33,303 nt of DNA from Candidatus Peregrinibacteria bacterium CG11_big_fil_rev_8_21_14_0_20_46_8 (GCA_002796025.1 PCVQ01000004.1:1-33303); one strand, 5' to 3'. Counted from the stretch's first letter, positions 13,770-33,043 are shown. Numbers and translations: made by a program. Notes: generated from the sequence alone by a model not told the origin.

Positions 13770-15317
13770 TCAGCTTTGCAGATAGCACTGTTCGCAGTGG
13801 ATTATTTCTGGTCTATCCGGTGCATATGCACTCTGAATTGGCATGTTACACTTCGCACACTGCCGTTTCCAGAGCAGACGCGGCGTGCGCTGAGCAAAAC
13901 GAGCAGAGTGCCGGCACTCAGGACATTTTTGAGGGAGCGGGATATCCTGTTTTTTGTAAAAATTCAGCTCTTTTGGAAGGATCTTGTAGGCTTTAGCACA
14001 GACAATACAGCGACCGGCTTCTTGTGGTAATGTGTGCTGCGTGATTTTTGTTTTTATTTGTTGAGGAAAGTAATCTGCTGCAACTGAATCTTGGTACGAA
14101 AAAGGGGAGAGCCCCATAGGGGGAAATTCGCCGTAAGTTTTGTCGGCATGCATATCGGCAATTATTTTTGCACGCAGCGTTTCATATTCTTGTTTTGTAT
14201 ATTGTTTATTGAGAATACAATATTTTTTATTTCTGAGTCCCACACAGCCAAAAAGATTTTGTGAACTTTTGCAGAAATCTGAATATTGGCAGTCTGCGCA
14301 TTCGCCACATGTATTGCAGAATTGAATATTGTTGTTTCCATAATAGCCAATATGCTCATAACAGAGTTCAAAGTGTTCGCAGTAGTTTACATCGTATGAA
14401 TCTTTGGCATCGATGATTTGGGCACAGTAGCGAACATCTTGAGCCTTTTTTACATCAAAGCAGTCGCGGGCATTTTTTGAATTTACAATATAGTTGCCGC
14501 TTACATTTTCGTTATTTAGATTTTGTGCATATTTATGAGGGAAATTGAGTTTGAATTTTGCAAATTTCTTAAGCAGTTCATCGATTCCTTTGCGTGTATT
14601 TAGTTTCAAATCCGTTTTTATATTCTCATACTCTTGTTGAGAATAAGCCTTATTGAAAATGTAATATTTTTTATTGCGCAGCCCAATGGAGGCAATACAA
14701 TTTTGTGATCCTTTACAGTCAAAACAGGCGATTAAATCTGAAGAAGTGGAGCAATCTTGGCAGTACTGGCATGCGTAGCATTTTTCACAATCTATGCACT
14801 CATAACAGAGTTCTGATTCACGTACTAAGAAACTATCATAGCAGTCACGCGATTCGTATGGAGATCCGTACATACAGTCTTCGATATGAATAGAACCGAA
14901 GCAGAGATAGCTGTTGTGAGCAAAGCCGACGTAATTGCAGTAATCACTATTTTCGGTGTTTACCGTTGCAAGATTAAGGCGTGGCACACGCTGCAGAAGA
15001 GCATGATATTGAGCGAAAAATGATTTTGAAGGTGAATATTCTTGTCCATGCTCCTGAGGATCCCATGCATCGCTCCACCAGCAGGTTTGGCAATAGACTG
15101 GAAAAGGGTGCCCGGGCGCATACATAGAAATTATTTTTTTGCCGCACAAACCGCATGTATCGTGATACAAATTGCGTTCATTGCGCCAAGCGAGCCTTCT
15201 CTGCATGCGGCATAGCGCACACAGTGTGGGGGCCGGCACATGTATTTTTGTATAGAATGCGCGATCCGAATCATCTATAACAAATTTCTTGCTGCAATGC
15301 GCACATGTTTTTTCCAT
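13770..15317 (-). CDS. Cys-rich zinc-ribbon repeat protein (paralog 1)
   Basis: MEKTCAHCSKKFVIDDSDRAFYTKIHVPAPTLCALC...; central Cys-rich ladder with IGLRNKKYYIFNKAYSQQEYE / VGLRNKKYCILNKQYTKQEYE repeats; C-terminal zinc ribbon. Confidence 0.85.
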   Translation of the reverse strand: MEKTCAHCSKKFVIDDSDRAFYTKIHVPAPTLCALCRMQRRLAWRNERNLYHDTCGLCGKKIISMYAPGHPFPVYCQTCWWSDAWDPQEHGQEYSPSKSFFAQYHALLQRVPRLNLATVNTENSDYCNYVGFAHNSYLCFGSIHIEDCMYGSPYESRDCYDSFLVRESELCYECIDCEKCYACQYCQDCSTSSDLIACFDCKGSQNCIASIGLRNKKYYIFNKAYSQQEYENIKTDLKLNTRKGIDELLKKFAKFKLNFPHKYAQNLNNENVSGNYIVNSKNARDCFDVKKAQDVRYCAQIIDAKDSYDVNYCEHFELCYEHIGYYGNNNIQFCNTCGECADCQYSDFCKSSQNLFGCVGLRNKKYCILNKQYTKQEYETLRAKIIADMHADKTYGEFPPMGLSPFSYQDSVAADYFPQQIKTKITQHTLPQEAGRCIVCAKAYKILPKELNFYKKQDIPLPQKCPECRHSARFAQRTPRLLWKRQCAKCNMPIQSAYAPDRPEIIHCEQCYLQS

Positions 15318-15356
15318 AAGGATAGTTACAAGTTCATGACAGAGGGTAGAGCGAGT

Positions 15357-15385
15357 TTGTAAGATTGTCTATATTTCAGTACAAT
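15357..15385 (+). promoter_or_regulatory. Promoter of the TrmB-like regulator
   Basis: TTGTAA-N17-TACAAT. Confidence 0.6.
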
Positions 15386-15388
15386 AGT

Positions 15389-15406
15389 TGTCACTATGCT
15401 GTGACA
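15389..15406. promoter_or_regulatory. Palindromic operator candidate
   Basis: TGTCAC-TATGCT-GTGACA, perfect 6-6-6 inverted repeat overlapping the expected transcription start. Confidence 0.65.
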
Positions 15407-15411
15407 GCACC

Positions 15412-16200
15412 ATGATAGATATTCCCCAAAAAATTAAGCAGACACTTCGTGATTTTGGTCTCAGTAAGGCCGAAATGTATGTATACGTAAGCGCTTTGCG
15501 GCTTGGAGCGCAACCCGCCAGCGTTATTGCAAAGCATGCGCTTTTGAAGCGTGGTCATACCTATAATATGCTTACGAGCTTAAAGGAAAAGGGATTGGTG
15601 CAAGAAATGATCAAGCGTAAAATTCGGCACTTTGCAGCATGTCGCCCCGAAACTATTCTCTCTGTTTTGCTACACCGCGAAGAAAAGATAGCGCATCAAA
15701 AGGAGCAAATTGCACAAATTATTCCACTCTTGCAGTCACTCAAAAATCCCGCAGTACAGCCTGCTCGCGTCCGATTTTTTGAGGGGTCTCAAGGTATTAA
15801 AGAGATTTATGAAGATACTATTCAAAATTCAAACGAAACCATATATGCAATTGGTGACTTCGCCTGTTTTTTCCCACAAGAAAAGGATCCGGTCTTAAAC
15901 GGCTGGATTTGGAAATATTCTCAGCGGCGTGCCGCAAAGGGAATTTGGTATTACGGAATCGCAAATAAATCGAAATATTCCGATATGGCTTTTAGAAAGC
16001 GTCTAAAACAAAAACGAAAATTAAAGATGCTGAAAGATGTGGAATTGCCTGTTGAAATCAATATTTACGGCAATAAAGTAGCGGTCATGTCCACATCAAA
16101 AGAAATGATTGGTTTTATTATTGAGGATGCACCCACTGCTGAAACGCTTCGTAATTTGCATAAGGCAATTTGGGGATTTTTGCCGGACTACGCTATTTAA
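15412..16200 (+). CDS. TrmB-family HTH transcriptional regulator
   Basis: LRDFGLSKAEMYVYVSALRLGAQPASVIAKHALLKRGHTYNMLTSLKEKGLVQEM (TrmB-like winged HTH) plus ARVRFFEGSQGIKEIYEDTI C-terminal domain. Confidence 0.85.
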   Translation: MIDIPQKIKQTLRDFGLSKAEMYVYVSALRLGAQPASVIAKHALLKRGHTYNMLTSLKEKGLVQEMIKRKIRHFAACRPETILSVLLHREEKIAHQKEQIAQIIPLLQSLKNPAVQPARVRFFEGSQGIKEIYEDTIQNSNETIYAIGDFACFFPQEKDPVLNGWIWKYSQRRAAKGIWYYGIANKSKYSDMAFRKRLKQKRKLKMLKDVELPVEINIYGNKVAVMSTSKEMIGFIIEDAPTAETLRNLHKAIWGFLPDYAI

Positions 16201-17876
16201 TACACCTCGGCCAAATAGCAGGTCTCGCAATATATTGTCTCTGGCCTGTTTGGAGCGTAACTTGTTTGGATTGCTTTTTTACACTTTGCGCATTCGCGTG
16301 TCCACAGACGCCACGGCGTTCTTATTTTGTTCCGCGCATTGTGCCGGCAATCTGGGCACTGTTTTGGAACCGGAATGCGCTGTGTCCGGTAAAATTTTAA
16401 CTCTTGTGCCGTGATGCGATAGTTTTTTGCACATATTTCACACGCGCAAATGCCTTTTGTAATCTCATCGGTGACCTCATCGATACTATTCGGAATTTGC
16501 ACAGTGGCCGGCTGAAATTCTTTTGAATCCTTTGGGCGCCAGCCCCAGCCTAATTCTTTTGCTTGCCCTTCATTCAGAGGAAAATGGTCTTGTGCAATGG
16601 TTTCATTGTAATTAAATGGTGAGAGCGAGGCCGGGAAAAATTCTCCCCATTCTCCGGTTTTTTGCATATGTTCAATAATACGTGCGCACATTTTTTCGTA
16701 TTCTTCTTTTGGATACTCTTTATTGAGGATTGTATGGCGCGCTTTATGAAAGCCAACAGTTCCAAAGCAATCTTGTGCAGAGGGTGACTGTACACAATAT
16801 AGAAGATTTTTTGCACCGTTCCAGTTATATACCGAAAGTACGATCCTGTATCCGGGTACGCCAGTTACGGTATTGTAATAAGATAATTCGGCCTCTTGAA
16901 TTCCGGTGATGTCGTAGCAATCAGAAATGGGTTTATCGCCGAGTGTTATAAACTTTGAATCTTGTGCACCGTTGGTGTCAAAACTTTGCTGTACATTTTT
17001 GCAGTTTGAAAGATTTGTACCGGTCGAATTTTCACAATTTGTAATTTGTGTAGCACGCATCGGAAATTTTAAACGGTGCTCTGTAAACATTTTCTTGGCT
17101 CGCTCAAGCCCCTCATGGGTATCTAGGCGGAGTTCTGCAATTCTTTTTTCATATTCTTCTTTGCTCAACTGTTCATTAAAAAAGCAATACTGTTTACCTA
17201 TGAGGTTTACGCTCCCAAAACAGTTTTGGCAGTTGCGGCAGCCTTCACAGAAAATACAATCAATGCAGTTTGTACAGTGTGTCGAATATTTGCATCCATA
17301 ACATTTGTTCACTTCCACACATTCATAGCAAAGCTCACTGTTATACGCAGTAAGACAATCTACTGAATCCTGGCAGCTCCATATATAGCTGGAGTACTGG
17401 CAATTTTCATTATCATTGCTGGCAAATATCAGATAGCAATCTTTGTTGTTATTACAAAAATTTACATAGTCGCTGTTGTATGATTTGTCTACGAGCAAAT
17501 CCATAAGGGGAACAGATTGAATCAGTTCGCGAAGCTGTGAAAAAAATGGACGATTGAAATCAAACTCTCGTCCATAGTCGCCGGCATCCCAAGTATCGCT
17601 CCACCATGCTTCTTTCTTATACACTTTATGCGGTTTGTCCGCTGCAATCCAAGAGATGATCGGCTCGCCCGTTGCATCGCAGTTTCGCCGGTAGAGGCTT
17701 CGTTCATTTCGAAACGCAAGGCGGTTTTGCAGGCGGCAGTCCGGACACTCTTTTGGCGGCGGAATTTCAAAAACTTGCCCGGCAAACGTAGGAGAAACGC
17801 GCTTATAAAATTCTAGATCTTCATCGCCAATGTGAAACGAAGTTCTGCATCGCCGGCATGTTTGTTCTAGAGCTAT
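16197..17876 (-). CDS. Cys-rich zinc-ribbon repeat protein (paralog 2), start codon uncertain
   Basis: 475 aa from GTG at 17624, but the frame stays open upstream and encodes IALEQTCRRCRTSFHIGDEDLEFYKR...PPPKECPDCRLQNRLAFRNERSLYRRNCDATGEPIISW, homologous to the N-terminus of paralog 1. No ATG/GTG/TTG before the in-frame TGA; ATA at 17874-17876. Confidence 0.75.
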   Translation of the reverse strand: MALEQTCRRCRTSFHIGDEDLEFYKRVSPTFAGQVFEIPPPKECPDCRLQNRLAFRNERSLYRRNCDATGEPIISWIAADKPHKVYKKEAWWSDTWDAGDYGREFDFNRPFFSQLRELIQSVPLMDLLVDKSYNSDYVNFCNNNKDCYLIFASNDNENCQYSSYIWSCQDSVDCLTAYNSELCYECVEVNKCYGCKYSTHCTNCIDCIFCEGCRNCQNCFGSVNLIGKQYCFFNEQLSKEEYEKRIAELRLDTHEGLERAKKMFTEHRLKFPMRATQITNCENSTGTNLSNCKNVQQSFDTNGAQDSKFITLGDKPISDCYDITGIQEAELSYYNTVTGVPGYRIVLSVYNWNGAKNLLYCVQSPSAQDCFGTVGFHKARHTILNKEYPKEEYEKMCARIIEHMQKTGEWGEFFPASLSPFNYNETIAQDHFPLNEGQAKELGWGWRPKDSKEFQPATVQIPNSIDEVTDEITKGICACEICAKNYRITAQELKFYRTQRIPVPKQCPDCRHNARNKIRTPWRLWTRECAKCKKAIQTSYAPNRPETIYCETCYLAEVY

Positions 17877-17912
17877 TGTGTTGGGGTAAAGTGCCTGTCA
17901 ATTAAACAATAT

Positions 17913-28108: not shown

Positions 28109-28477
28109 TTATTGTTTAATTTTTTTAACCGCTTCCTGAAGCGTTTCGAGTGCCAGCAGACCGCACTTGATTCGTGCCGGGCCGAGTTCTGTGCCGAGCC
28201 ATTCAAAGATATTGTGTGGGCCCCAATCTGAAATATCGTTAAGGAGAACGCCTTTGGCCTCTTCGGTAAGCAAACTCGCTGCAGCAATAGAAATTGCGCA
28301 GCCTTCGCCTTCAAAAGATAGATCGGTAATTTTCTCACTATCTTTTTTTATATATATTCGCACACGGTCGCCGCACGTCACATTTGCCCCGCTGTTCGTA
28401 ATATGGGCATCCGGCATCGACCGCTTGTTTACAGGGTTTTTGTAGAGATCAATAATGAGTTCGCGGTAGAGATTCAT
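28109..28477 (-). CDS. sufU: SufU/IscU-like Fe-S cluster scaffold
   Basis: NSGANVTCGDRVRIYI, FEGEGCAISIAAASLLTEEAKG, ARIKCGLLALETL: three conserved Cys; overlaps sufS by ATGA. Confidence 0.9.
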   Translation of the reverse strand: MNLYRELIIDLYKNPVNKRSMPDAHITNSGANVTCGDRVRIYIKKDSEKITDLSFEGEGCAISIAAASLLTEEAKGVLLNDISDWGPHNIFEWLGTELGPARIKCGLLALETLQEAVKKIKQ

Positions 28478-29676
28478 GATTTGAAGATCTTTTTAACATT
28501 TCTTAAGCCGGCTGCCAAGCGGTCGATATCTTGTTCAGTATTATAAAGATAGAAGCTCGCGCGTACGGTTGCAGGCAGATTAAGCCGCTCCATAAGGGGC
28601 ATACAGCAATGGTGACCCGCTCGCACCGCGATATTATCTTCATTTAAAATTTCGGCAATGTCGTGGGGATGAATTCCTTCAATACCGAATGAAAGTACAC
28701 CGCTTTGCATTGCCGGATTATTTGGACCATAAAGCTGCACTCCATCAATTGCGCCGAGCGTTTTGAGTGCATAATGTAACAGCTGCTTCTCGTGATCGCG
28801 AATTTTATTCATGCCGATACTTTGTAAGTAGCGCATAGCGGCTGCCAATCCAATTGCCTCTGCAATAGGCGGCGTACCTGCCTCAAATTTATTCGGCGCC
28901 TTTTGAAAGGTGGATTTTTTAAGATGCACTTCTTTAATCATGCCGCCACCAAAGTGCCATGGCAGTTCAAGTTTTTCTTGTACGCGCTCTTTCATATAGA
29001 GCACTCCAATGCCGGTTGGCCCGCACATTTTATGACCGGAAAAAACAACAAAGTCTGCATCTAAATACTGCACGTCCAGCGGCATGTGCGGTGCGCTCTG
29101 TGCGGCATCTACAAGGACTTTTATGCCCGCAGCGTGCGCCTGCTGAATGATTTTTCGGAGCGGCACAATTGTGCCGAGTGCATTAGAAACATGTGTGATG
29201 GTGAGCAGGCGAGTTTGCCGTGAAAGCAGTTTTAAAAACTGTTCCTCGCGCAGCGTTCCGTCATCATTAACATCAATATGTTTAAGCGCGCATTTCTTTT
29301 CACGCGCCAACATTTGCCACGGAACGAGATTGCTGTGATGTTCTAGAACTGTGGTGAGAATTTCGTCGCCTTCGCGTACAAATTGTCGTCCCCACGATTG
29401 TGCTAAGCCATTAATTGCTTCAGTGGTGCCGCGCGTAAAGATAATTTCGTGCGCTTGTTTTGCATTGATAAATTCGCGCACAGTCTCTCTGGCTCCTTCA
29501 TATGCAACTGTTGCGCGCTCGCTTAAATCGTACAGTCCGCGGTGAATATTCGCGCTGAATCCGGTGTAGTACTCATTCATAGCATCGAGCACCGGCTGCG
29601 GCTTGAGCGATGTTGCGGCGCTGTCTAAATAGACAAGCTCCGGCTGCTTTTGCAATAGAGGAAAATCACTTCTCAT
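28474..29676 (-). CDS. sufS: SufS-type cysteine desulfurase
   Basis: YLDSAATSLKPQPVLDAM, EHHSNLVPWQ, DFVVFSGHKMCGPTGIGVLY, VRAGHHCCMPLM. Confidence 0.96.
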   Translation of the reverse strand: MRSDFPLLQKQPELVYLDSAATSLKPQPVLDAMNEYYTGFSANIHRGLYDLSERATVAYEGARETVREFINAKQAHEIIFTRGTTEAINGLAQSWGRQFVREGDEILTTVLEHHSNLVPWQMLAREKKCALKHIDVNDDGTLREEQFLKLLSRQTRLLTITHVSNALGTIVPLRKIIQQAHAAGIKVLVDAAQSAPHMPLDVQYLDADFVVFSGHKMCGPTGIGVLYMKERVQEKLELPWHFGGGMIKEVHLKKSTFQKAPNKFEAGTPPIAEAIGLAAAMRYLQSIGMNKIRDHEKQLLHYALKTLGAIDGVQLYGPNNPAMQSGVLSFGIEGIHPHDIAEILNEDNIAVRAGHHCCMPLMERLNLPATVRASFYLYNTEQDIDRLAAGLRNVKKIFKS

Positions 29677-29753
29677 ATGAGCCACGAGTATAACGAAGGA
29701 GTATTTGGAAGTCCAGAATTGCATACCCTATAATAGGGAGTAGAATCTCACTA

Positions 29754-30287
29754 ATGGATTACATTTTTGTCACAGGAATTATCGGTTCACTTGTGCTTGT
29801 TACCGGCGCCGCGTGGCCGGAATCAAAAAAGGCGCGCCATCCGGTGCAATCTGCAAAAAATTGGCTCTTTGCAATCGGAGGTCTGATACTTTTACTATAC
29901 GCACTGCTTGGTTATTTGAACGGCGGCCCAATTTTCTTCGTCTTTTTAGAGGTGCTTATTTTGATCGCAAGTATTTTGATGATGCTCAATGTGCCGGACA
30001 GAATCGATATTCCGGTCATTCTTGGCTGTGCGGCTATTCTTATTATTTGGTCGTTAGCCCTTTTTGAAGATTATAGAACGATTATTTTTATTCTTGGTCT
30101 TGCGGGTGTCGGTTTAGGCTATGCATTTGATATGCGCTCTTTGAAGCGCGATGCAGCGCTCACCGGCGGCAGTATTTTGATTGCGTTTTTTAGTTATACT
30201 GAAGGCAGCTGGATATTCTTTTGGCTCAATGTCTTTTTTGCAATTTTTTCCGCCTTTTATCTATTTAAACACTTACAACGCACATGA
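29754..30287 (+). CDS. Hypothetical multi-pass membrane protein
   Basis: 177 aa, almost entirely hydrophobic helices. Confidence 0.75.
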   Translation: MDYIFVTGIIGSLVLVTGAAWPESKKARHPVQSAKNWLFAIGGLILLLYALLGYLNGGPIFFVFLEVLILIASILMMLNVPDRIDIPVILGCAAILIIWSLALFEDYRTIIFILGLAGVGLGYAFDMRSLKRDAALTGGSILIAFFSYTEGSWIFFWLNVFFAIFSAFYLFKHLQRT

Positions 30288-30718
30288 TTTTCTCATTTGA
30301 TGCAATCATTCTCTATTTAAAAATCGTTACTATTTTTATAGGATTTATGAGTTTCTATGGCATTTTTTTTCAAACATTTGATCCAACCGGATGGATGGAA
30401 AATCAGATGAGCAGAGCGATGTTTGGAAAAGATAAATTAACTGATGAACAAGCACGTGCGTTTCGCTTTCCAATGATGCTTTTTTGCTTGGCGAGTCTAT
30501 GTCTTGCAATCTTTATGTACGCTTTTATTCACTATGTTTTGGCAGAGCAGGTGCTGTGGGCCTGGTATATCTTTATGGCACCGCTCGTACTTTGGTTTGT
30601 TTTTGCCGGTTGGTATACACTTCGAAACGGACTGAGATTTTATTTTCTCTATTCGGTGATTCCTTTTGAACTTTTGTATGTGCCTGCTCTTCTGCTGCTG
30701 AAGCCTTATTTAGTGTGA
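30284..30718 (+). CDS. Hypothetical membrane protein
   Basis: 144 aa; ATGA overlap with the preceding gene. Confidence 0.75.
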   Translation: MIFSFDAIILYLKIVTIFIGFMSFYGIFFQTFDPTGWMENQMSRAMFGKDKLTDEQARAFRFPMMLFCLASLCLAIFMYAFIHYVLAEQVLWAWYIFMAPLVLWFVFAGWYTLRNGLRFYFLYSVIPFELLYVPALLLLKPYLV

Positions 30719-31596
30719 AGCTTTAATGCATCTAATTTTGCCTCTACTGTCTTTTTTATTGTTGAGGCAAAGGGCATATTCGCATATGCGTCTTGCATAA
30801 AACCTTCGGCGATCATGTGGATGGCCTCTTCTTCTGGAATACCGCGGCTTGCGGCATAAAAGAGCTGTTCGTCGTCAACGCGGGTGATTGCGGCTGAATG
30901 TCCTGCAGTCACATCGTTCGTGTCGATTTTGAGTCGGGGAATTGCATCTATTTTGCACTCGCTTGAGAGGAGCAGCGCCTCTTCTTCCAGCTGGCCGTCG
31001 CAGCCGTGACCGGTCTGTTCTATAACGATACCGCCGTCGAAGCGGCCGTGTGCCGTGCCGTGGAGTGCGCCTTGTGCGGTGATCTGAGCCCGGCCGTTGA
31101 TGCCGCGCATGTAGGTTGTAGAAAAGATTTCGAAATTCTGCGTCTCGTTTCCAAAGAAAATATTGTGCTGCTTGAGGCGCGCTTCAGCGCCGGTCAGTGT
31201 TGTTTCTAAAATAAGCGTGCTCTGCGCAGCGCCAAATGTGCCGGTATAGCATTCGAGCTCAGCGCCCTCTTCAAGTTCGATTTGAAAAATCGCAAAGCCA
31301 TTTTCTGTTGATGCCAGATTTTGCAAATAAGGGAGGATGAGTTTGGAATTTTTTTTCTGTACAATGCTCACTGCGGTGAGGCCTGGAGTTGCTTCCAGTG
31401 TTGGCAGCTCTAGAGTTTGTCCTTCCGCGACGGTGATTGTTGCTGTGCGGATATTTTTATCTGCACGTTTCTCGGCTGCTCGCAGGCTGGCAGTGGCACG
31501 TTCATACCCTTTCATACGGAGTTGTTTTCCAGTTGGGTCCTGCGTAGGAATATGCGCTTTAATTTGCTCGCACGTTGTAGTTGTCCAGTGAATCAT
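30706..31596 (-). CDS. sufD: Fe-S cluster assembly protein SufD
   Basis: LSSECKIDAIPRLKIDTNDVTAGHSAAITRVDDEQLFYAASRGIPEEEAIHMIAEGF is the SufB/D C-terminal core; start at MIHWTTTT. Confidence 0.93.
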   Translation of the reverse strand: MIHWTTTTCEQIKAHIPTQDPTGKQLRMKGYERATASLRAAEKRADKNIRTATITVAEGQTLELPTLEATPGLTAVSIVQKKNSKLILPYLQNLASTENGFAIFQIELEEGAELECYTGTFGAAQSTLILETTLTGAEARLKQHNIFFGNETQNFEIFSTTYMRGINGRAQITAQGALHGTAHGRFDGGIVIEQTGHGCDGQLEEEALLLSSECKIDAIPRLKIDTNDVTAGHSAAITRVDDEQLFYAASRGIPEEEAIHMIAEGFMQDAYANMPFASTIKKTVEAKLDALKLHTK

Positions 31597-31603
31597 AAGA
31601 AAA

Positions 31604-31622
31604 AGCCTGCTTTCGGCAGGCT
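31604..31622 (-). terminator. Terminator/attenuator-like hairpin in the sufB-sufD junction
   Basis: Reverse strand AGCCTGC-CGAAA-GCAGGCT-TTTTCTT-ATG(sufD). Confidence 0.6.
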
Positions 31623-31624
31623 GG

Positions 31625-33043
31625 TTATCCAATCGCTCCGGCCTCTTCCATTTCTAATTCGATAAGGCGGTTCATCTCTACCGCATATTCCAGCGGCATG
31701 GCTTTTACAATCGGTTCGATAAATCCATTTACAATCATCGCGATCGCTTCATCTTCACTTAAGCCGCGGCTCATCGCATAGAATAATTGCTCTTCACTGA
31801 TTTTTCCAACAGTAGCCTCGTGTGCAATCGAGATGTCGTTTTCTTCGATGCGTATGTCGGGGATGGTGTCTGAAATTGAGTGATCGTCGAGCAGCAATGC
31901 ATCGCAGCGCACCTGTGCTTTACTTCCTTTCGCGCCTTTCAAAATCCGCAGCAATCCCCGGTACACCGACTTCCCTCCATTTTTGCTGATACTCTTCATC
32001 ACAACTTTACTGCTGGTATTCGGCGCCGCATGAATTACTTTGGCGCCCGTATCTTGAATCTGATCTTTATTTGCAAATGCGATGCCAAGGTGATCGGCAC
32101 GCGCGCCCTCGCCGCGCAAAATAGAACACGGATAGAGCATTGTTGCACCGCTTCCCATGTTTCCGCCAACCCACTCCATAACACCATTGCGGTCTACTAA
32201 CGCACGCTTGGTATTCAAGTTATAGGTATTGCGGCTCCAGTTTTCTACAGAAGAGTAGCGGAAGCGTGCGCCCTCTTTTACAAAAACCTCGACCAATCCC
32301 GCATGAATTGAAGGTGATTCATATTTTGGCGCCGAACATCCTTCTATATATGAGCCCTGTGCACCATTCTCGACAATAATCAAAGTATGTTCAAACTGCC
32401 CCATAGACTGTGCATTCATTCTAAAATACGCTTGCAACGGCTGATCTACATTCACACCTTCCGGAATATATATAAACGTGCCGCCGCTCCATACCGCGCC
32501 GTGCAGTGCCGCAAACTTGTGGTCGTGCATCGGCACGCAGCGCATAAAGTACTGCTTCACCAAATCCGGATACTTTTGCAGTGCAGTATCCATATCCTCA
32601 AAAATTACACCTTTTTCGCCCCATTTCTCCTTTAAGCGGTGATAAACATTTTCGCTCTCGTACTGGGCTCCTGCGCCGGCAAGATATTTCCGCTCTGCTT
32701 CCGGAATTCCTAATTTTTCGAAAGTGCGTTTAATATCTGCGGGAACATCTTCCCAGTTGTGGCTTGGCTTAATTTCTCCTGGCCGCGCATAGTAAATAAT
32801 CTCATCTAAATTGAGTTTAGAAAGATCCGGACCCCAGCCTGGCATAGGTTTTTCTAAAAAAACTTTCAGTGATTTTAGGCGGTGCTCCAGCATCCACGGC
32901 GGCTCCTTTTTGTCTCCGGAAATGCGGCGTACTACTGCTTCACTCAAGCCGCGAACCGCGCCCTCCGCATATGCCGAATCATTCGCGCTATCGAGCGTTT
33001 CTCGATTTAAATTTCCAACATAGTCCAGGGTAACATTTGCCAT
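31625..33043 (-). CDS. sufB: Fe-S cluster assembly protein SufB
   Basis: FIYIPEGVNVDQPLQAYFRMNAQSMGQFEHTLI, SVENWSRNTYNLNTKRA, DDHSISDTIPDIRIEENDISIAHEATVGKISEEQLFYAMSRGLSEDEA. Confidence 0.97.
   Translation of the reverse strand: MANVTLDYVGNLNRETLDSANDSAYAEGAVRGLSEAVVRRISGDKKEPPWMLEHRLKSLKVFLEKPMPGWGPDLSKLNLDEIIYYARPGEIKPSHNWEDVPADIKRTFEKLGIPEAERKYLAGAGAQYESENVYHRLKEKWGEKGVIFEDMDTALQKYPDLVKQYFMRCVPMHDHKFAALHGAVWSGGTFIYIPEGVNVDQPLQAYFRMNAQSMGQFEHTLIIVENGAQGSYIEGCSAPKYESPSIHAGLVEVFVKEGARFRYSSVENWSRNTYNLNTKRALVDRNGVMEWVGGNMGSGATMLYPCSILRGEGARADHLGIAFANKDQIQDTGAKVIHAAPNTSSKVVMKSISKNGGKSVYRGLLRILKGAKGSKAQVRCDALLLDDHSISDTIPDIRIEENDISIAHEATVGKISEEQLFYAMSRGLSEDEAIAMIVNGFIEPIVKAMPLEYAVEMNRLIELEMEEAGAIG

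Follow-up and report, generated by a model that had tools for sequence, protein, structure and literature searches.

A cysteine-rich protein family with zinc modules at both ends that co-occurs with a TrwB/VirD4-like ATPase clade in Candidate Phyla Radiation bacteria

The 33,303-nucleotide stretch of DNA from Candidatus Peregrinibacteria bacterium CG11_big_fil_rev_8_21_14_0_20_46_8 analysed here (PCVQ01000004.1:1-33303, referred to as the window) contains two paralogous genes for cysteine-rich proteins that carry a zinc module at each end, hence termed bookend proteins. The family to which they belong occurs almost only in genomes that also encode one clade of TrwB/VirD4-like motor ATPases, and probably makes up half of a molecular machine that has not been described. 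The parts are of known kinds, and their assembly matches no known system identified. Bacteria of the candidate phyla radiation (CPR) are mostly uncultured and have small genomes, yet some lineages devote up to ~25-30 gene copies to this family. The link to an orphan TrwB/VirD4-like ATPase would provide a first concrete partner for proteins that are otherwise labelled hypothetical.

A VirD4/TraD-like ATPase is the second most frequent neighbour of the family. The ATPase clade was defined by at least 55% identity to the protein of one genome (G034), and 43 genomes of the order were searched. The clade was found in 24 of 25 family-positive genomes and in none of the 18 family-negative genomes (Fisher 3e-11, a value which overstates independence because genome kinship was not modelled). 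Genomes with and without the bookend family occur side by side in six taxonomic families (f2, f4, f8, f12, f15 and f60), and in these ATPase and bookend genes were concordant in all genomes except G040; in f60, four genomes carried both and four carried neither. Of 240 genomes sampled evenly across the phylum, 16 were family-positive, and the 15 highest ATPase scores were all located in these 16. The top score in a family-negative genome (835 bits, G214) lay close below the lowest positives. Most clade ATPases examined were encoded no more than 3 kb from a family gene, usually on the same strand, and several overlapped it or were less than 110 bp away. At seven family-negative comparison loci, no family gene was observed beside the ATPase.

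Paralog 1 is encoded on the minus strand by an ATG-initiated open reading frame (13770-15317, 515 amino acids; ~704-713 bits against the family profile). It comprises an N-terminal zinc module (residues 2-82, 15072-15314, minus strand), a duplicated solenoid (residues 117-358, 14244-14969, minus strand) and a C-terminal zinc module (residues 434-514, 13776-14018, minus strand). The N-terminal module contains a zf_Tbcl-like finger (Cys 5, 8, 33 and 36) and a CxxC-x17-CxxC finger (Cys 55, 58, 76 and 79); the cysteines of the C-terminal module are 437, 440, 465, 468, 487, 490, 508 and 511. An initial annotation of this DNA had proposed that the zinc module is duplicated at both termini around a cysteine-rich ladder, and had suggested a self-alignment as a check. 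The BLOSUM62 alignment of the two ends of paralog 1 scored 136, compared to 77 for the best of 1000 shuffles that kept the cysteine positions; for paralog 2 the values were 109 and 60. Thus, the end modules of both paralogs align well beyond such shuffles and the bookend plan is real. The ladder between them is present as described, with the addition that it is itself duplicated. Its two halves in paralog 1, which are connected by a helical linker, align with a score of 181 (shuffle maximum 105).

Paralog 2 (16197-17876, minus strand, 559 amino acids; 749 bits against the family profile) has the same plan, in agreement with the initial annotation. The reported loss of one N-terminal cysteine pair was an underestimate, however, as the second N-terminal finger retains just one of its four cysteines (the four positions read C, T, K and A). 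Degeneration of this finger is common: over 70 members of the family it was intact in 34 and reduced to zero or one cysteine in 36. The first C-terminal finger was intact in 43 of the 70, and the last finger retained its four cysteines in 69. The beginning of paralog 2 is unusual. No in-frame ATG, GTG or TTG was found ahead of the first zinc finger (17862-17897, minus strand), where the ATA at 17876-17874 is the sole start codon of translation table 11, and starting at the first GTG (17624) would lose the first finger. Either a rare start codon is used or the start of the gene is damaged.

By their profile matches, the end modules correspond to the known pair zf_Tbcl (PF13451) and zf_Tbcl_2 (PF23477). 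This assignment is based on the PF13451 matches and on free two-finger proteins; the initial annotation had not made it, nor had it covered the multicopy distribution or the motor link. In a genome search, paralog 1 matched PF13451 at 15195-15311 with 24.0 bits (curated cut-off 24), a match that is absent from the results of the whole-protein Pfam scan. Searching genomes of the phylum with PF13451 finds the bookend family in the window's genome and in others. PF23477/TIGR04272 matched weakly at residues 48-80 of paralog 1 (14.2 bits, PF23477 cut-off 27). At E ≤ 0.1, PF13451 matched 25 of the 70 members, several above the curated cut-off, and PF23477 matched 42, the best with 8e-8. Free open reading frames of ~97-145 amino acids with the same two fingers are found in other CPR genomes, and a 104-residue protein of the distant genome G245 scored above the curated cut-offs of both models (40 bits for PF23477). 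The literature searched contained no description of a protein with this pair at each of its ends. The net charge of the zinc modules is +4 and +7, that of the solenoids -7 and -5.5.

Using an alignment of 70 sequences, an AlphaFold2 model of paralog 1 was built (mean predicted local distance difference test score, pLDDT, 82.5; predicted template modelling score, pTM, 0.84). Strands recur every 12 residues. Confidence is good for the second solenoid half and the caps and poor for residues ~121-190 (pLDDT ~50). The middle is thus predicted, partly with low confidence, to be a tight beta-solenoid of 12 residues per turn with cysteine at every third position. Across the family, the cysteine autocorrelation at lag 3 was 0.72 in the first and 0.39 in the second half of the middle; C, S and L are abundant in the cysteine phase, D and N in a neighbouring one. 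This three-residue phase suggests that the cysteines line the interior of the solenoid. A cysteine-lined solenoid, for which the initial annotation had recommended an AlphaFold model, was obtained overall, with the first half less certain. Family proteins contain 29-51 cysteines (median 37). A hydrophobic-segment scan of the 70 proteins revealed no signal peptide or membrane segment, and export of the family by such a segment was rejected.

Foldseek searches with the bookend model returned nothing below E 0.001 in PDB or BFVD. The phage model phrog_15341 matched the solenoid, with E values of 9e-19 for the free G245 solenoid and 4e-6 for paralog 1. Pfam scans of the window paralogs and the 70 members reported no match to the insect antifreeze family PF02420. 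A short cysteine-repeat protein of Campylobacter phage CPt10 (FN667789.1, locus L186, 3007-3432) is weakly solenoid-like and carries PF02420 hits annotated by the depositor. A DNA-mimicking beta-helix, as in Qnr and MfpA, was considered as an idea only: the acidic solenoids would fit, but the turn is of 12 residues and not 20.

Besides the fused form, solenoid and zinc module exist as separate neighbouring genes beside the motor in two lineages. In the taxonomic family of the window, the ATPase gene is followed by a frame for the solenoid only, of ~313-322 amino acids in four genomes, and by a zinc-module frame of its own (~95-119 amino acids), an arrangement that is conserved between housekeeping genes. 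The window's own genome has a split locus in which a zinc frame (102 amino acids) precedes a 356-residue solenoid frame. In the distant G245, genes for the 104-residue zinc protein, a 306-residue solenoid, a sigma-70 region 4/HARE protein and the ATPase follow one another. Related ATPases of family-negative genomes, seen at seven loci, are longer (852-1061 amino acids), and in several cases adjoin a sigma-70 region 4-like gene of the type that lies between solenoid and ATPase in G245.

A model of the ATPase (pTM 0.58) matched VirB4, TrwB and HerA in Foldseek searches with E values down to 1e-13 (TrwB ~1e-10). Pfam matches were to T4SS-DNA_transf, TrwB_AAD_bind, TraG-D_C and DUF87, and PF02534 exceeded its cut-off in several proteins. 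In all 20 family-linked ATPases, the highest 19-residue hydropathy within the first 250 amino acids was only 0.5-1.5, whereas four of five longer relatives, including that of G245, reached ~2.0-2.8 at the N-terminus. The family-linked ATPases thus appear to have no clear N-terminal membrane helix, unlike most relatives; the call was made by simple hydropathy and not by a topology predictor.

Profile searches, which the initial annotation had recommended for the family distribution, revealed a family that is multicopy in some CPR lineages. As had been stated there, no function is assigned to the bookend plan: neither a functional nor any other description of the family was found in the literature searched, which is limited evidence given that few subscription papers were covered. 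Matches were present at ~10-12 places in the window's own genome, some of them broken or at contig ends, and in 44 of 59 relatives, with up to 28 first-look candidates per genome. Named records with the family include Nomurabacteria, Liptonbacteria, Peribacteria, Kerfeldbacteria, Peregrinibacteria, Gracilibacteria, Magasanikbacteria and SR1. The phage and plasmid records searched with paralog 1 contained no match, and a search of IMG/VR matched one short fragment. In the window's own genome, six of ~12 copies, on five contigs, lie less than 1 kb from the end of a contig (post hoc binomial test, 7e-4); perhaps strain variation breaks the assembly at these sites. Recent lateral transfer was rejected, as the best cross-genome identities of the family exceed those of the ATPase by at most 0.02. 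Genome labels are scattered on the family tree as in shuffles (73 versus 73.5), a pattern that agrees better with old paralogs than with a recent expansion. Genes resembling toxin-antitoxin systems are, by eye, common between family copies (MNT/HEPN, RelE-like, PIN, MazF-like and Fic-like).

The window further contains a gene for a TrmB-like winged-helix regulator (15412-16200, plus strand; PF01978, E = 5e-9, 36.2 bits, cut-off 25.6), which did not feature in the initial annotation. It is located between the paralogs, divergent from paralog 1 (head-to-head) and convergent with paralog 2 (tail-to-tail), and such genes are recurrent head-to-head neighbours of the family elsewhere. The 21 genomes searched gave 101 TrmB-like hits, of which at least 11 had a listed family hit no more than 1 kb away, compared to 1.13 expected (the Poisson value for this proximity assumes random placement); at least nine of these were divergent. 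Inverted repeats in the intergenic regions of 19 TrmB/family loci showed no consistent excess in length over shuffles (p 0.35 for the window; 0.015-0.055 at a few loci), and hence no operator is claimed. Towards its right end (28109-33043), the window carries SufU-, SufS-, SufD- and SufB-like genes of a Suf-type iron-sulfur cluster system, as judged from sequence, and a SufC-like ATPase frame follows directly past this end.

Anatomy, co-occurrence, adjacency and split genes support a reading, to which we assign a probability of roughly 0.5, in which the bookend proteins partner interchangeably, as adaptors or as clients, with a soluble ATPase that descends from a VirD4/TrwB-type coupling protein. 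The ATPase would physically engage the bookend protein, and the basic zinc ends may dock onto the motor or onto a nucleic acid. The acidic solenoid, which varies among copies, might set what is captured, be it nucleic acid or protein, and the local TrmB-like regulator could decide when the cluster is expressed. A more specific proposal, in which one soluble descendant of type IV coupling proteins (T4CP), free of a membrane anchor, works in ultra-small CPR bacteria with a diversified set of zinc-capped solenoids, each giving the motor a different specificity under TrmB-like local control, is more tentative. Several observations weigh against such a partnership. G215 has ~12 family copies but no ATPase at threshold, G040 has one family copy and no clade ATPase, and in G010, G016, G005, G102 and for the main copy of G017 the ATPase lies away from family genes in the stretch read. 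Because family-linked sequences went into the ATPase profile, it is biased towards close lineages. Moreover, just one or two ATPase genes are present for up to ~25-30 family copies, and no enzyme or nucleic-acid-binding signature was found in the bookend proteins.

Alternatively, the proteins could be secreted effectors, the diversified cargo of a CPR type IV secretion system (T4SS) with the T4CP-like ATPase as dedicated receptor. The coupling-protein fold of the motor, the many diverged copies per genome, reminiscent of an effector repertoire, and a cysteine-rich tight beta-helix suited to an extracellular, disulfide setting are in line with this idea, as is the wide occurrence of T4SS in Patescibacteria, with thousands of VirD4 homologues far from virB4 according to the available text of a survey (PMC12102498). 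However, a clear N-terminal membrane helix is missing from all 20 family-linked ATPases but present in four of five longer relatives, no other T4SS gene was recognized beside the clusters, and a signal peptide or membrane segment was detected in 0 of 70 family proteins. The missing hydrophobic segment argues against a simple membrane-bound receptor, not against secretion via another part, and we regard secretion as unlikely on balance. Slightly less probable still is a role in defence, with diversified cytosolic sensors of mobile elements recruiting a HerA/T4CP-like motor against foreign DNA. Such a role would account for the patchy presence and variable copy number; toxin-antitoxin genes among the neighbours, the occurrence of HerA-type motors in defence systems and the weak matches that PADLOC gave between the ATPase and mad8 or HerA point the same way. 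These matches span the generic motor only, however, the bookend proteins had no PADLOC match, a nuclease or other effector domain was not found in the set, and the family was absent from the phage and plasmid records searched. A metal or redox store, in which the cysteine ladder would hold zinc, iron-sulfur clusters or thiol reagents while the motor link is incidental, is improbable. The cysteine content and zinc-finger ends would suit a store, but ATPase co-occurrence and adjacency would be left unexplained, and inner-phase positions also take Ser, Leu and other residues, as expected of a structural core. That both families are accessory genes co-travelling in the same genomic islands without functional link is very improbable: unrelated toxin-antitoxin and transporter genes do occur in the clusters, but ATPase/family junctions are short or overlapping in several lineages, including the arrangement between housekeeping genes, and family identity across genomes rarely exceeds ATPase identity, so that the sampled genomes give no indication of a recent joint transfer.

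Insect antifreeze protein of the Tenebrio type consists of 12-residue cysteine beta-helix turns in which every third residue points inward. The bookend solenoid has a three-residue cysteine phase and, with low confidence in part (pLDDT ~50 for residues ~121-190), predicted turns of 12 residues, but bookend proteins are much longer, zinc-capped, acidic and bacterial. The phage model phrog_15341, of unknown function, spans 276 positions and lacks zinc modules, and its likeness may partly mirror cysteine periodicity. Free zf_Tbcl and zf_Tbcl_2 proteins, encoded here by frames of ~95-140 amino acids, have the two fingers in the same order as the bookend ends, whereas the bookend family flanks a solenoid with the pair at both ends, one finger often being degenerate. 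The 2025 survey of Patescibacteria T4SS counted 5,713 VirD4 homologues in 2,918 genomes, 148 of them near virB4, and its available text leaves the role of the virB4-distant homologues undecided, with exaptation as a possibility, and does not mention a zinc/solenoid family (PMC12102498). The link described here suggests a testable role for some of these distant homologues (PMC12102498). Compared to VirD4/TrwB coupling proteins and VirB4/HerA motors, the partner ATPase has the same motor fold; it differs from the coupling proteins in that the family-linked clade appears to lack the N-terminal membrane helix and adjoins bookend genes rather than a relaxase or recognized T4SS genes.

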